The notes under the pieces: generated by a model | Databases searched by the model: none | Told to the model about the DNA's origin: nothing | What the model saw: only the letters and a program-made list of their open reading frames with translations | Translations under genes and position numbers: made by a program | Origin: Desulfuromonas sp. | GTDB taxonomy: Bacteria > Desulfobacterota > Desulfuromonadia > Desulfuromonadales > BM103 | DNA: 41,291 bases | Direction: 5' to 3' | Assembly (NCBI GenBank): GCA_012026975.1 | Contig: VEPG01000046.1 | Location: 12,367-53,657 of the forward strand | In this document: piece by piece, positions 27,563-41,291 of the stretch | Layout of the letters: every line of letters begins with the position of its first letter | How positions within the stretch are numbered: the stretch's first letter is position 1

Positions 27563-28512
27563 TGCCATATCTCGCAGGTGAACCAGCCGATACTGCAAGT
27601 CAACCCGAGCGCCAAAACCGCCACCGCATACATGAGCATCACCATCCGTCGGTAATCGTCGATCGTCAGCAGCCGCCCGGCATCGCCGAAGGTCGGCTTC
27701 TCCTGCCACCGGCCGAAGTAGCTGGCCGGGCCGCCGAGCTGCACCCCCAGGGCCCCGGCGGCGGCCGCTTCGGGGTAGCCGGCATTGGGGCTGGCATGTT
27801 TGCGCGCGTCGCGTCGAGCAATGCGCCAGGCCTTACGGGCGTCGAGGCCGAGCGGAAGGCAAGCACACACCAGCAACAGGGTGGTGAGCCGGGCCGGCAG
27901 CCAGTTGAGCAGGTCGTCGAGGCGCGCCGCCGCCCAGCCGAATTCCCGGTAGCGCTCGTTGCGGTAGCCGACCATCGAATCGAGGGTGCTGGCCGCCTTG
28001 TAGAGCATCCCCGCCACCGGTCCGCCAAGGCCGAGATAGAAGAGTGGGGCGACAATCCCGTCCGAGCTGTTCTCGGCCACGGTTTCGATGCAGGCCCGCA
28101 GGATCGCCTGCTCGTCGAGTTCACCGGTGTCGCGGCCGACAATCATGCTCAACGCCTGCCGGGCACCGGGCAGATCGCCGGCACTCAGCCGCGCGATGAC
28201 AGCGGCGCTCTGGCGGTGCAGTTCCCGCACCGCCAGGCAGGTCCAGGCCAACCAGACGGCGACGACGATGCCGGTGGCCGGATGCAGCCAGGCGGCCAGG
28301 GTCAGCAGCCCCCACGCAGCGGTGCCGGCCACCGCCAGCGTCAGGAGAACCAGCACGATGCCACCGAGGCGGCGCGGCTGGATGCGTTCGTAAAGAAGCC
28401 CTTCGCATCCGGCGATCAGCCGGCCGATGCCGACCACCGGGTGCGGCAGCCGGCGCGGGTCGCCGAACAGCAGGTCGACGGCGAAGGCCGCCGCCAACCA
28501 GAGCGGCGACAT
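27559..28512 (-). CDS. cbiB: Adenosylcobinamide-phosphate synthase CbiB
   Basis: Integral membrane enzyme that joins adenosylcobyric acid to aminopropanol phosphate (or aminopropanol), giving adenosylcobinamide phosphate. The 317-residue protein has several membrane helices and the family blocks DLLFGDPRRLPHPVVGIG, IVGRDTGELDEQAILRACIE, ETVAENSSDGIVAPLFY, KAASTLDSMVGYRNERY and SPNAGYPEAAAAGALGVQLGG. The ATG shares its A with the TGA of the cbiH-cbiP fusion gene, so translation is coupled. The product of cobD, which overlaps its stop, is its substrate donor. Confidence 0.95.
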   Translation of the reverse strand: MSPLWLAAAFAVDLLFGDPRRLPHPVVGIGRLIAGCEGLLYERIQPRRLGGIVLVLLTLAVAGTAAWGLLTLAAWLHPATGIVVAVWLAWTCLAVRELHRQSAAVIARLSAGDLPGARQALSMIVGRDTGELDEQAILRACIETVAENSSDGIVAPLFYLGLGGPVAGMLYKAASTLDSMVGYRNERYREFGWAAARLDDLLNWLPARLTTLLLVCACLPLGLDARKAWRIARRDARKHASPNAGYPEAAAAGALGVQLGGPASYFGRWQEKPTFGDAGRLLTIDDYRRMVMLMYAVAVLALGLTCSIGWFTCEIWQ

Positions 28513-30863
28513 CAGCCAGCGGACTCGTCTGGCAGCTCGAGCAGTGCCCAGATCCGCGCCAGATCGAGATGCCGCGCCAGGTGATCGGCCAGCCGGTCAA
28601 GCTCGGCATCGAGGCCCGCAACGGCCGGGCGCGCCGCCGGGGCCAGGCCGCGTCGGGCCCGCAGGAAATCGAGCAGGGCGTGACGCAGCGCGGCATCGTC
28701 GAACAGGCCGTGCAGGTAGGTTCCCCAGGTGCGGCCATCGACGGAAACGGCGCCGTCCTCGATCGTCTCGCCGAAACCGCCGTGGCGGGCCACCGCGAAG
28801 AGCGGCCGGGCCAGCGCCCCCCGGGTCGTCACCCCCATGTGGATCTCGTAGCCGGACACGTCCCCGTCCGCCGCCAGGCCGAGCGCCACCGCCCCCTCCA
28901 GCACGGTGCCCGCCACCTGGTGGGTCTGCTTGTCGCCGGTCAGCACCGTATCGACATCGAGGAGGCCAAGCCCCTCGGCCTCGCACTGATCGGACTCGAT
29001 GCCGTCGGGATCGGCGATATGCTTGCCGAGCATCTGGTAGCCGCCGCAGATCCCGGCGATCCGCCCTCCCTGCATGTGGAAGTCGTGAATCGCCCGGGCC
29101 AGACCGCTGGTGCGCAGATGTTGCAGATCGGGAAGGGTGCTCTTGGTGCCGGGGAGGATCAGCAGATCGAGCCCGGCAATCTCGTCCGGGCTGGTGATGT
29201 AGCACAGGTCGACATCGGCTTCCTGCTCGAGGGGGTCGAAATCGGTATAGTTGGAGAGGCGCGGCAGACGGACCACGCCGATGCGTAGCGGCGCCCCTGC
29301 CCTGCCCTGCCCCTTGCGGGCCAGGCCGAGCGAGTCCTCTTCGGGAAGCTTGAGATCGAGCCACGGCACGACCCCGAGCACCGGCACGCCGGTCCGCGCC
29401 TCGACGGTGGCAATCCCGGAAGCGAGCAGCGATGGGTCGCCGCGGAAGCGGTTGATGATCACCCCGGCGAGCATCCGCCGTTCCTCCGGGGCCAGAAGTT
29501 CGACGGTGCCGACGATGCTGGCGAAGACGCCTCCGCGGTCGATGTCGGCGACCAGCAGCACCGGAGCCTGTGCCATGGTCGCGGCGCGCAGGTTGGCGAT
29601 GTCGTGTTCGCGCAGGTTGATCTCGGCAATGCTCCCCGCCCCCTCCATGACCACGATGTCGGCACGGGCGGCCAGGCGTTGGAACGATTCCTCGATCTTC
29701 CGGAACGCCTCGGGCTTGTAGGCGTGATACTGCGCCACGGTCATGTTGCCGACCGGCCGCCCCTGGACGATCACCTGCGCCCCGGTGTCGGAATTCGGCT
29801 TGAGGAGCACGGGATTCATGTCGACGTGCGCCGGCACCCCGCAGGCGGCGGCCTGCAGCGCCTGGGCCCGGCCGATTTCGCCGCCCTCCGGGGTGACCGC
29901 CGCGTTGAGCGCCATGTTCTGCGCCTTGAACGGCAGCACCTTGACCCCTTGGTTGCGCAGCAGCCGGCAGAGGCCGGCGGTCAGTACGCTCTTGCCGACA
30001 TCGGAGCCGGTACCGCCGACGAAAAGTGCCCGCGCTTTTTGAGTGCCAAGCGCCAAGACGCAAGACTCAAGAGGTTGTTCTTGAGTCTTGGCGCTTGAGT
30101 CGTGCACCTCATATCCCCTCGGCGTGACCATCCGCCCTTTGCCATCCACATAGGTCGCGGTGTTGCCGATGATCACCAGGGAGAACATGTCGATGGGGTG
30201 GGCGGTGAAATCCAGCAGGGTGCTGACCGTGACCTCTTCGTCGGCACGACAGGCGTGGCGGACGATGCCGACCGGGGTGGCCGGGTCGCGGTGGCGCAGC
30301 AGGGTCTCGCGCGCCGCCTCGATCTGGCTGGTGCGCGAACTGCTTTTCGGGTTGTAGAGGGCAACGACGAAATCGACCGCGGCCGCCGCTTCCAGCCGTC
30401 GGGCGATCGTGTCCCAGGGGGTGAGCAGATCGGAAAGGGAGATCACCGCGAAGTCGTGCATCAGCGGCGCGCCGAGCCGGGCGGCAGCAGCCTGCAGGGC
30501 GGAGACGCCGGGAACGATCTCGATGTCGACATCATGCAGGAGCGCAGCAGGCTGCGCCCCTGCGCCCTCATTCGCCAATTCCAAAACCAGTCCGGCCATG
30601 CCGTAGATGCCGGCATCGCCGCCGGAGACCAGGGCGACGACCTGGCCGGCGGCCGCCCGTTCCAGCGCCTGGCGGCAGCGCTCGACCTCCTGGCGCATGC
30701 CGGAGGCGAGCAGTTCCTTGCCGGCCAAAAGGTCCGGGATCAGGTCGAGATAAGTCTGGTAGCCGGCAACCACCTCGGCCGCCTCGATGGCGGCTCGCGC
30801 CGCCGGGGTCAGGTGGGCGGAATCACCGGGACCGATGCCGACGACAAACAGTTTACCGCTCAT
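28512..30863 (-). CDS. cbiH-cbiP: CbiH-CbiP fusion: C17-methyltransferase plus cobyric acid synthase
   Basis: A 783-residue bifunctional protein. Residues 1 to about 250 are the SAM-dependent C17-methyltransferase (CbiH/CobJ) that performs ring contraction, with VVGIGPGDSAHLTP, SGGDAGIYGMAG and ALYNPKSSSR. Residues from about 277 to the end are cobyric acid synthase (CbiP/CobQ), which amidates the b, d, e and g side chains. These contain P-loop GGTGSDVGKS, KAQNMALNAAVTPEGGEIGRAQ, GICGGYQMLG and YLHGLFDD. The linker, residues about 256-272, is encoded by a heptamer-repeat hairpin (30048-30096) and has no homology to either enzyme. The frame is continuous. The methyltransferase acts mid-pathway while the amidase acts late, so the fusion does not channel consecutive steps. 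It starts 2 bases after the cbiG stop. Confidence 0.92.
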   Translation of the reverse strand: MSGKLFVVGIGPGDSAHLTPAARAAIEAAEVVAGYQTYLDLIPDLLAGKELLASGMRQEVERCRQALERAAAGQVVALVSGGDAGIYGMAGLVLELANEGAGAQPAALLHDVDIEIVPGVSALQAAAARLGAPLMHDFAVISLSDLLTPWDTIARRLEAAAAVDFVVALYNPKSSSRTSQIEAARETLLRHRDPATPVGIVRHACRADEEVTVSTLLDFTAHPIDMFSLVIIGNTATYVDGKGRMVTPRGYEVHDSSAKTQEQPLESCVLALGTQKARALFVGGTGSDVGKSVLTAGLCRLLRNQGVKVLPFKAQNMALNAAVTPEGGEIGRAQALQAAACGVPAHVDMNPVLLKPNSDTGAQVIVQGRPVGNMTVAQYHAYKPEAFRKIEESFQRLAARADIVVMEGAGSIAEINLREHDIANLRAATMAQAPVLLVADIDRGGVFASIVGTVELLAPEERRMLAGVIINRFRGDPSLLASGIATVEARTGVPVLGVVPWLDLKLPEEDSLGLARKGQGRAGAPLRIGVVRLPRLSNYTDFDPLEQEADVDLCYITSPDEIAGLDLLILPGTKSTLPDLQHLRTSGLARAIHDFHMQGGRIAGICGGYQMLGKHIADPDGIESDQCEAEGLGLLDVDTVLTGDKQTHQVAGTVLEGAVALGLAADGDVSGYEIHMGVTTRGALARPLFAVARHGGFGETIEDGAVSVDGRTWGTYLHGLFDDAALRHALLDFLRARRGLAPAARPAVAGLDAELDRLADHLARHLDLARIWALLELPDESAG
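30047..30100 (-). repeat. Heptamer-repeat hairpin forming the CbiH-CbiP linker
   Basis: Read on the plus strand: CAAGCGC, CAAGACG, CAAGACT, CAAGAGG in tandem (30047-30074), then a complementary arm with TTGAGTC and TTGGCGC units. AAGCGC (30048-30053) pairs with 30091-30096 and CAAGACTCAAGA (30061-30072) pairs with 30079-30090, with a 6-base loop and a 7-base bulge equal to one repeat unit. The same CAAGACT unit lies in the cbiET-cbiL and cbiF-cbiG junctions. Confidence 0.85.
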
Positions 30864-31924: not shown

Positions 31925-31927
31925 GGG

Positions 31928-31966
31928 CAAGACTCAAGGTTCAAGGTCAAAAGTCCGAGGTAAAAG
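31928..31966 (-). repeat. Degenerate heptamer repeat between cbiF and cbiG
   Basis: Plus-strand reading gives CAAGACT, CAAGGTT, CAAGGTC, AAAAGTC, CGAGGTA and AAAG in 7-base steps (31928-31966). It fills most of the gap before the cbiG start and shares the CAAGACT unit with the cbiH-cbiP linker. Confidence 0.65.
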
Positions 31967-32746: not shown

Positions 32747-32766
32747 GGATGGTTCCGTTTAGCCAA

Positions 32767-32826
32767 GTCAAAGGTCAAAGGTCAAAGGTCAAAGGATTAT
32801 TGCTATTTACCTTTTACCTTTCACCT
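32767..32826 (-). repeat. Heptamer repeat GTCAAAG x4 between cbiL and cbiF
   Basis: Four perfect copies of GTCAAAG (32767-32794) are followed by a partly complementary arm CTTTTACCTTTCACCT (about 32811-32826), giving a possible hairpin. It fills the 74-base junction and reaches the cbiL stop codon. Confidence 0.85.
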
Positions 32827-33531
32827 GTTTTTTCTGACGATCAGCAGCGACAGATAGTCGAGCTTCTGGCCGACCAGCGCGGCCAGATCGGTCACCACTT
32901 CTTCCTGGTCCGATCCCACCCGGCGGACGAACACCCCCTGGCGCTCCAGCCCGAGCTCGGTGAGCAGCGCGTAGACCCGGTCGAAGACCCGGCTGATCTT
33001 CATCAGCACCACGCAGTCGAAATCGAGCAACGTCTGGCGGAGCTTCTCTTCTTCATAGGTCGCGGGGAGGATCGCCAGGCGCTCCGCCGCCATCCCCAGC
33101 GGGATCCCGGCCGCGGCCGCCGCCGCGCCGACACTGGTGATGCCGGGGACGATCTCGACGGCGATTTCCGGGTAGCGTTCGCGCAGGATGCGTAGCAAGT
33201 AGAGGAAGGTCGAGTAGAGGAGCGGATCACCGATGGTGACGAAGGCCACCGTCCGCCCGGCGCGGACATGCCCGGCGACTTCAAGGGCCGTCGCCTCCCA
33301 ATGGGGGCGCAGTTCTTCCTCGTCGCGGCTCATCGGGAAGACCCGCTCCAGCACCAGCTGCCGGTCGCGGTCGAGATGCCCGGCGACGATCCCCAGCGCA
33401 TAGCTGGCCGCCTCGGCCTGGCCGGTCGGGGCGACGATGACGTCGGCGGCGCGCAAGATGCGCGCCGCCTTGAGAGTCAGCAGTTCGGGATCGCCGGGGC
33501 CGACGCCCACGGCATAGAGACGGGGAGACAT
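32821..33531 (-). CDS. cbiL: Cobalt-precorrin-2 C20-methyltransferase CbiL (CobI)
   Basis: SAM-dependent methyltransferase that adds the C20 methyl to cobalt-precorrin-2, the first methylation after cobalt insertion. The 236-residue protein has YAVGVGPGDPELLTLKA, FVTIGDPLLYSTFLYL, VPGITSVGAAAAAAG and LMKISRVFDRV near the end, the family's typical blocks. ATG 33531 is chosen; a TTG three codons upstream lies in repeat DNA. The repeat-filled junction before it means no clear ribosome binding site can be named. Confidence 0.93.
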   Translation of the reverse strand: MSPRLYAVGVGPGDPELLTLKAARILRAADVIVAPTGQAEAASYALGIVAGHLDRDRQLVLERVFPMSRDEEELRPHWEATALEVAGHVRAGRTVAFVTIGDPLLYSTFLYLLRILRERYPEIAVEIVPGITSVGAAAAAAGIPLGMAAERLAILPATYEEEKLRQTLLDFDCVVLMKISRVFDRVYALLTELGLERQGVFVRRVGSDQEEVVTDLAALVGQKLDYLSLLIVRKNR

Positions 33532-33537
33532 AAGCGT

Positions 33538-33606
33538 CAAGACTCAAGACTCAAGAAACAAGATTGAAGGAAAGTCATCAGCATATTCTTGAGTCTTGCC
33601 TCTTGC
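33538..33606 (-). repeat. Heptamer-repeat hairpin between cbiET and cbiL
   Basis: CAAGACT, CAAGACT, CAAGAAA on the plus strand (33538-33558), then 28 bases, then the complementary arm TTCTTGAGTCTTG (33586-33598) pairing with 33545-33557 over 13 bp. It fills the whole cbiET-cbiL junction and belongs to the same family as the cbiH-cbiP linker. Confidence 0.85.
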
Positions 33607-33608
33607 GT

Positions 33609-34820
33609 CTATTCCTTCACTGCCGTAATGACGAAGACCGGGTTGTGCGCCTCGAACAATTTGTAATCGGTCAGTGGCCGGGTGCGGGCGATGTTGACGG
33701 TGACCACCTCCAGCTGGTAGCCGGCATTCTCGAAGAACTCGGTGGCGGCGGTCAGGGTGTCGAGAGTGACGGCGTTGATCACTACCCGGCCGGCGGCCGG
33801 CAGACGGCCGTCGATCGCCTTGAGGATCTCCCAGAGGTTCCCCCCCGAGCCCCCGATGAACACCCGGTCCGGATCGGGGAGACCATCGAAACACTCCGGG
33901 GCGGCGCCGGCCACGACGTTGATATGGCGCGACTGGAACTTGCCGAGATTTTCCTTGAGAAAGGCCAGACACTGCGGGTTGCGTTCGATGGCGTAGACTT
34001 CGCCGTTGGGGAGCAACTGATCGGCCTCGATGCTGACCGAACCGGAGCCGGCGCCGATGTCCCAGAGGGTCATGTCGTGGCGCAGGCGCAGCTTGGCGAG
34101 ACTGACGGCACGCACCTCTTCCTTGGTGATCAGCTTCTTGACGGTCGCGAACTCCTCGTCGGCGATCCCCAGCGCCGGCCGTGCCCCTTCGCCGCCGGCC
34201 TCATACTCCTTGATCAGGATCAGGACATTCAGAGCCGCGGCCCTGATCTCCAGCAAGCCGCGGATATCGGTGCGCACGATCCGCTCCTGGTCGCCGCCGA
34301 GGTTCTCGCACAGCCAGGCACTGTAGCCGTCGCGGCCACGCTCGATCAGCTCATTGGCGATGGCCGCCGGGGTGTTCTGCTCGTCGGTGAGGATCGCCGC
34401 CTTGTCGTTGGCGACGATCCGGTCGACCGCCTCCTTGAGACCGCGCCCGTGGGTGGAGATGAAGACCGTGTCATCCCACGGTTCGCGAATCCTGGCGAAG
34501 GCGTACTGCACCGAACTGACATTGGGGAGGAATTCGAAATCGGCACCCGGCAGGTTGCGCAGCAGGTAGCGGCCGATCCCGAAGAAGAGCGGATCGCCGG
34601 AGGCGAGCACCACCGGATTCCCGGCAGTTTTTTTCAGGCGTTCCACCACCCGGCCGAGATTGCTGTCGACGACCAGCTTCTCTCCGGTGAAATCAGGAAA
34701 GAGCGCCAGCTGCCGTTCGCCGCCGATCAGCAGATCGGCCTGCCGGATCAACTCCAGCGCCCTGCGACCGAACTCCTCGTGTCCCCTGACTCCCGCCCCG
34801 ATCACGTAGATCTTGCTCAT
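33609..34820 (-). CDS. cbiET: Precorrin-6Y/7 methyltransferase-decarboxylase CbiET (CobL-type)
   Basis: A 403-residue fusion of CbiE and CbiT, equivalent to CobL, which methylates C5 and C15 and decarboxylates the C12 acetate. The CbiE half (1 to about 205) is a tetrapyrrole methylase with IYVIGAGVRG, LASGDPLFFGIGRYLL and FLPNVSSVQYAFARI. The CbiT half (about 215-403) is a class I methyltransferase with ITKEEVRAVSLAKL, LWDIGAGSGSVSIEAD, AIERNPQC and DRVFIGGSGG. Fused CobL-like forms are common. The ATG overlaps the cbiD stop as ATGA. C-terminally it ends at a repeat-filled junction. Confidence 0.95.
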   Translation of the reverse strand: MSKIYVIGAGVRGHEEFGRRALELIRQADLLIGGERQLALFPDFTGEKLVVDSNLGRVVERLKKTAGNPVVLASGDPLFFGIGRYLLRNLPGADFEFLPNVSSVQYAFARIREPWDDTVFISTHGRGLKEAVDRIVANDKAAILTDEQNTPAAIANELIERGRDGYSAWLCENLGGDQERIVRTDIRGLLEIRAAALNVLILIKEYEAGGEGARPALGIADEEFATVKKLITKEEVRAVSLAKLRLRHDMTLWDIGAGSGSVSIEADQLLPNGEVYAIERNPQCLAFLKENLGKFQSRHINVVAGAAPECFDGLPDPDRVFIGGSGGNLWEILKAIDGRLPAAGRVVINAVTLDTLTAATEFFENAGYQLEVVTVNIARTRPLTDYKLFEAHNPVFVITAVKE

Positions 34821-40391: not shown

Positions 40392-41291
40392 GGCGACCGG
40401 TCCCGCCACCTTTGACAACTGGCGACGAAGTTCGCCGCCAGCGCCGGGTTCGACGCGAAGTGCAGGTGCACATAGGAGCCGAGCACGTTGCCGCGCAGGT
40501 AACCTTCCTCCCCGTACGGCGTGTCGTCGCGCCCGGCCAGCCGGTAGGCGCGGGAAACGTCGGGCGGCATCGCCAGCTCCGAATAGTGGAACTCGTGGCC
40601 GCGCGCCGTCGTGCCGGCCGGGCCGAGAGGGGTGGCGACGGTCATGGTCACTTCGCGGTAGCCGAGGGCCTTGCGTTTCGGCAGCATGCGCGCGGCCGCC
40701 GGAAAGATCCCGGCCAGCGGCACGCCGTCGAGGCTGGCTGACAAAAGCAGCAACCCCCCGCATTCGGCATAGACCGGCATGCCGCCGTCCACTGCGGCAC
40801 GCAAGCCGGCAAGCAGCGTCGCATTTGCCGCCAATTGTTCGACATGCAGTTCCGGATACCCTCCCGGCAGGTAGAGTCCCTCGATCCCCTCCGGCAGACG
40901 CTCGGTCAGCGGCGAGAAGAAGACCAGTTTGGCGCCGGCGCGCTCCAGCAGCTCCAGGTTCTCCGGATAGCAGAAGCAGAAGGCCGCATCGCGGGCGACG
41001 CCGATGCGCACCGGGTCGGCATTTCCCCTCACCCGGCCTTCGGCCACCCTCTCCCCGAGGAGAGGGTGCTCTCCCCTCGCCCCCTGGGAAAGGGGTCGGG
41101 GGTGAGGGGAGAAATTCTCCAGCAGCTGGTCAAGATCGACGTATGCCTCGATCCAATCCGCCAGTTTTGCGTAGATCGCGGTCGCCGCCGCATCGTCCGC
41201 CGTCACCTGGCCGAGATGGCGCTCCGGCAGGACCAGTCTCGCATCGCGCGGCAGGCATCCCAGCAGCGGCGGCAAATCCGGCCGCGAGGCG
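40388..41291 (-). CDS. cbiA: Cobyrinate a,c-diamide synthase CbiA (CobB), C-terminal part
   Basis: The frame is open to the right edge, so the N-terminal ATP-binding domain is mostly outside the window. The 300 visible codons start within LLGCLPRDARLVLPERHLG, end of the DTBS-like domain. They include the linker, then VARDAAFCFCYPENLELL and FSPLTERLPEGIEGLYLPGGYPELH, the glutaminase cysteine in YAECGGLLLLS and GHEFHYSEL. It amidates the a and c carboxylates of cobyrinate. A 29-codon palindromic element (41024-41110) sits exactly between the two domains. The gene ends coupled to pabBC. Confidence 0.93.
   Translation of the reverse strand, partial: ASRPDLPPLLGCLPRDARLVLPERHLGQVTADDAAATAIYAKLADWIEAYVDLDQLLENFSPHPRPLSQGARGEHPLLGERVAEGRVRGNADPVRIGVARDAAFCFCYPENLELLERAGAKLVFFSPLTERLPEGIEGLYLPGGYPELHVEQLAANATLLAGLRAAVDGGMPVYAECGGLLLLSASLDGVPLAGIFPAAARMLPKRKALGYREVTMTVATPLGPAGTTARGHEFHYSELAMPPDVSRAYRLAGRDDTPYGEEGYLRGNVLGSYVHLHFASNPALAANFVASCQRWRDRSP
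41024..41110 (-). repeat. 87-bp palindromic element inserted in frame in cbiA
   Basis: TCCCCTCACCC at 41024-41034 is the perfect inverted complement of GGGTGAGGGGA at 41100-41110. Inside is a second hairpin, ACCCTCTCC-CCGA-GGAGAGGGT (41046-41067). The length is 29 codons, and it is translated on the minus strand as a Pro/Arg/Gly-rich linker with SPHPRPLSQGARGEH. Similar CCCTCACCCC-type palindromes are widespread intergenic repeats in many bacteria. Confidence 0.85.

Follow-up and report, generated by a model that had tools for sequence, protein, structure and literature searches.

The window, a 41,291-nt stretch of a Desulfuromonas sp. contig (VEPG01000046.1), carries cobalamin genes, one of which joins CbiH and CbiP in a single open reading frame. 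The features at issue are listed here with their window coordinates.

28512..30863, minus strand: cbiH-cbiP fusion ORF of 783 aa, precorrin-3B C17-methyltransferase plus cobyric acid synthase
30029..30110, minus strand: inter-domain linker region, about residues 252-278 (~27 residues), placed by domain ends and pLDDT; predicted disordered
30047..30097, minus strand: translated heptamer hairpin with CAAGACT/CAAGCGC-type arms, residues 256-273 of the fusion, within the linker
31926..31938, no strand assigned: short single arm, GGCAAGACTCAAG / CAAGACTCAAG, at a gene junction
33537..33600, no strand assigned: full CAAGACT-type hairpin, untranslated, between the cobalamin-gene ORFs 32821-33540 and 33609-34820
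41017..41115, minus strand: palindromic element of CCCTCACCC / CCCTCTCCC (CCCTC) type, an in-frame, translated part of the CbiA linker that precedes the GATase domain

Both domains of the fusion are complete within one open frame. Profile matches place CbiH at residues 5-252 (TIGR01466, 310 bits against a cut-off of 246) and CbiP at residues 279-775 (NF001989, 638 bits against a cut-off of 273), and the Pfam domains of the ORF are TP_methylase, CbiA and GATase_3. The hairpin falls between residues 252 and 279, confirming the claim of an earlier note on this DNA that a repeat hairpin forms the linker: residues 256-273 of about 252-278 are most of it. The inverted-repeat arms (30047-30065 and 30079-30097) are 19 nt each and 95% complementary, with a 13-nt spacer. 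The RNA fold of the hairpin reaches -35.1 kcal/mol versus -21.5 +/- 3.3 in shuffles (z -4.2), a value matched by 0 of 200 shuffles. Within the whole fusion ORF, the linker holds both the top-scoring inverted repeat (16, versus 9 at best elsewhere) and the top-scoring 7-bp tandem stretch (11.5 versus 5). An AlphaFold model of the fusion (mean pLDDT 71.9, with only 10 sequences) assigns no secondary structure to residues 249-275, whose pLDDT stays below 50 and is about 28 for the most part; the linker is predicted to be disordered. A plasmid blastn search with the hairpin returned no match.

The earlier note also described untranslated copies of the element at two neighbouring junctions, and both are present, one as the full hairpin at 33537-33600 and the other as the lone short arm at 31926-31938. 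A third junction, at 32764-32827, bears an AGGTCAA-type heptamer hairpin whose unit is unlike CAAGACT. The CAAGACTCAAGA unit has 11 exact matches in the studied genome (control, 0) and 0-1 copies in each of 21 other genomes, two congeners among them; the CAAGACT unit is all but restricted to the studied genome. A search of that genome with the exact inverted CAAGACT pattern gave no match, the pattern being too strict. Strong hairpins of any sequence number 32 in 392 kb of the studied genome, sampled as 20-kb stretches with about half of the contigs picked for carrying the repeat. Outside predicted genes lie 25 of the 32, where genes are crude calls (longest open frames) that make counts of hairpins within ORFs upper bounds. 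The repeat is thus dispersed and largely intergenic, with several genomic copies, most of them outside genes. A CAAGACG-type hairpin (L220:13274-13337) lies early in an open frame coding for a carboxypeptidase-regulatory-like protein and may sit upstream of the true start.

The studied genome is a draft of 116 contigs, which lends some colour to the suspicion that the fusion arose from faulty annotation or assembly, or that the gene has decayed. Either is hardly credible. Internal stops are absent from all 51 fused orthologues, including those of the single-contig genomes G033, G034, G040 and G089, and the fusion is the sole copy of CbiH and of CbiP found in the studied genome. Against the same-genus genome G002, dN/dS is about 0.26 for CbiH and 0.19 for CbiP; in close pairs it is about 0.05-0.26 in both domains, well under 1 and indicative of purifying selection. 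Judged by these sequences, the fusion protein is almost certainly made and used.

Of 136 genomes sampled from the order, 42 encode the whole fused protein, and relatives at class level, named Geobacteraceae MAGs among them, encode it too. In a tree of the two domains, one branch (SH-aLRT 99) splits fused from unfused proteins, so that the fused ones form a single clade. Outside the class, cbiH and cbiP are separate, adjoining in G169, G179, G225, L060 and L070 and farther apart in others. A search of open-licence papers for earlier accounts of CbiH joined to CbiP, or of cobalamin linkers containing repeats, returned none; one paper describes a CobD/CbiP fusion of Geobacter lovleyi that aligns with Pelobacter carbinolicus (PMC3403914).

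Linker length over the 51 fused genes ranges from 18 to 45 residues. Many of these linkers are DNA repeats, yet of differing kinds, and in many fused relatives the linker is plain, at 18-25 residues. At a threshold chosen by the analyst, 15 of 51 linkers show a strong 7-bp tandem signal, versus 4 of 1920 control windows elsewhere in those genes (Fisher p 6e-22, approximate because the control windows half-overlap and the genes share ancestry). Over periods 4-15, enrichment is limited to 7 and its multiple 14. The heptamer unit varies by genome, and at least two unrelated palindromic elements occupy the linker besides heptamers.

CAGGAGT unit: G040
CAGGAGC unit: G029
GCTGAAG unit: G046
GGGACGA unit: G032
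TTGAACC unit: G198
CCTCACC unit: G094, G089 and G097
CCCCCTTT...AAAGGGGG element: G022 and G042
CCCTCTCCC...GGGAGAGGG element: G093 and G091

The CCCCCTTT-type and CCCTCTCCC-type elements have dispersed copies elsewhere in those same genomes. Sister taxa carry unlike linker fillings (G000/G002, G094/G093, G097/G091, G046/G131 and G033/G032), and repeated replacement of the linker is plain because the sisters G094/G093 and G097/G091 differ in filling. A tree that leaves the linker out requires about 11 changes of heptamer state, at least 8 of them forced by branches with good support. The linker of G002 was considered as another palindrome and rejected, its inverted repeat scoring 9 versus 10 elsewhere in its ORF; it is excluded from the repeat linkers, though the tree of heptamer states labels it a palindrome. 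In genus g41, the "empty" genomes G095 and G096 still bear a one-arm heptamer array, and gain and loss are inseparable there. No exact empty site with a target duplication was recovered, the linkers being too diverged for alignment. Disorder alone is insufficient to explain the site because the internal linker of CbiP, between its two domains, is also low-confidence in the model and has not been invaded: its heptamer signal is 0 of 50 when it is located by alignment mapping (a motif search had matched 9 of 51).

The earlier note proposed that cbiH and cbiP were once separate, with a CAAGACT hairpin in the gap between them, and that in-frame loss of the stop and start there created the fusion. 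Unfused relatives with adjoining genes do exist, and two distant unfused operons, L060 and L070, carry heptamer arrays in the untranslated cbiH-cbiP gap, at the homologous position. In L060, the gap (L060:3763-3877) opens at the stop right after TPRGYDV, consists of heptamer arrays with inverted arms and closes at the cbiP start. Such gaps show that the cbiH/cbiP junction can be a repeat site also when predicted to be untranslated. The unfused arrangement that the earlier note expected, with the repeat in the gap, is therefore seen in part, as a heptamer hairpin in a distant relative, but the array is not shared by G225, the sister of L060, whose gap is almost nil. Because that sister is almost gapless, the L060 array reflects gain or loss of a repeat and not the origin of the fusion.

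Relative age also counts heavily against a repeat-made fusion, which is very improbable. The fusion is a single clade spread across the order and class, whereas the unit is almost confined to the studied genome. In G002 the fusion is 82% identical, with a different linker that lacks the CAAGACT repeat, and the fused Geobacteraceae and the genera g45 and g15 have plain linkers. The earlier note had held that fused relatives with a conserved non-repeat linker would speak against its history; fused relatives without a repeat linker are indeed present, their linkers being variable, not conserved. Since the fusion is order- and class-wide, the G002 linker differs and the unit is nearly private, the repeat is younger than the fusion and not its maker. 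The fusion is, by this distribution, ancestral to its clade and far older than the CAAGACT repeat. An older, different repeat may have stood at the ancestral fusion; nothing demands it.

In all probability, the linker is an old disordered tether that intergenic-type repeats have entered, or in which they have expanded, in frame, repeatedly and independently, the CAAGACT hairpin being one recent case. The ancestral fusion would have left a disordered tether under scant sequence constraint. Genome-specific 7-bp tandem or inverted arrays, or other palindromic elements, would then arrive or expand in frame, by transposition, template switching or slippage, take over the bulk of the linker peptide and be retained where neither its length nor its sequence matters much. 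Their persistence would reflect tolerance, neutral or nearly so, rather than hairpin function. A 7-bp unit suits this course: since 7 is not divisible by 3, an array of a stop-free unit can be read through in every frame, and the sole demand is a net length divisible by 3. Random heptamers are stop-free as tandem arrays in 69% of cases on a given strand and in 50% on both.

The inter-domain linker of CbiA repeats the CbiH-CbiP linker pattern. In the window, where the CbiA gene sits at the edge and is cut by the contig end, the CCCTC-type element encodes the peptide FSPHPRPLSQGARGEHPLLGERVAEGRVRG and is unrelated to the CAAGACT hairpin. Across 25 genomes, the studied one included, the CbiA linker is of CCCTC type, CCCCCTTT type or GGGGTCAG...CTGACCCC type, or holds other palindromes, or is plain; its inverted repeat outscores all control windows in 9 of the 25. 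The GGGGTCAG...CTGACCCC palindromes, 24-25 bp long, lie in the CbiA linkers of G032 (L264), G093 (L234) and G115 (L263), with arms that are unlike between these genomes yet complementary in each. This palindrome occurs at five places in 24 genomes, three of which are CbiA linkers of three different families.

The hairpin might instead work in the mRNA, as an inter-domain pause aiding co-translational folding or in protection or attenuation, and hence be favoured at junctions. The strong fold (z -4.2) is consistent with such a role, as is the clustering of repeats at both inter-domain linkers examined, CbiH-CbiP and CbiA. So are the three CbiA linkers whose palindromic arms have diverged between genomes and remain complementary, although arm matching can also be explained by template-switch correction of quasi-palindromes, an established mechanism. 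The hairpin is not required, because in more than half of the fused genes the linker is plain and lacks a notable hairpin. Several of the heptamer linkers, such as those of G029 and G198, are tandem arrays without a strong inverted repeat, and no Rfam family matches the hairpin. Function in the mRNA is accordingly doubtful. It is similarly unlikely that hairpin repeats are actively favoured at the CbiH-CbiP and CbiA junctions, recruited as both linker peptide and mRNA pause, with arms that change together to stay complementary. Tolerance of repeats at an old tether is the preferred reading.

In-frame palindromes in genes are already known from Rickettsia palindromic elements (RPEs) and intragenic REPs. 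RPEs sit in frame within functional genes, where they are translated (PMC10969869, PMC3733652). Compared by description, the linker hairpin resembles them: a palindromic repeat lies in frame in a functional gene, adds peptide to it and is absent from orthologues. RPEs, as reviewed, are defined families of about 150 bp found in many genes of one genus, whereas here a single linker, in one orthologous protein, is occupied across an order by short genome-specific heptamers and unrelated elements. Among intragenic REPs of the GTAG/CGTC families, two Xanthomonas species carry unlike REPs at nearly the same position in recB (PMC3733652). They too are short palindromes within genes, a likeness drawn from descriptions, but the units here have a 7-bp period.

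Heptameric intergenic repeats of Xanthomonas and Nostoc are dispersed 7-bp tandem units enriched outside genes (PMC4692102). These are of G-quadruplex type and under-represented in coding regions, in contrast to the hairpin-forming or simple tandem arrays translated in the linker. In Borgs, tandem repeats yield new disordered protein regions (PMC9879509), much as disordered peptide is made from repeat DNA here, but intragenic Borg units are all divisible by three and the units here are 7 bp. A case of unrelated repeats, chiefly heptamers, that time and again fill a single linker of an orthologous enzyme throughout an order was not found in open-licence papers. What is newly seen is that the CbiH-CbiP linker is a recurrent in-frame landing site for repeats.

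The 51 orthologues form a natural replicated series in which non-coding repeats supply linker sequence, with many independent fillings and with plain linkers as controls. The series gauges the tolerance of a bifunctional enzyme to change in its tether and illustrates that period-7 DNA is able to pass as coding sequence. It also counsels caution: finding a repeat where two genes are fused does not make it the cause of their fusion.

Clustering of a repeat within one genome is seen in G040, a closed genome, where all six matches to the CAATCCCCCTTT...AAAGGGGGA pattern fall within 19 kb (G040:C1:3082991-3101334).
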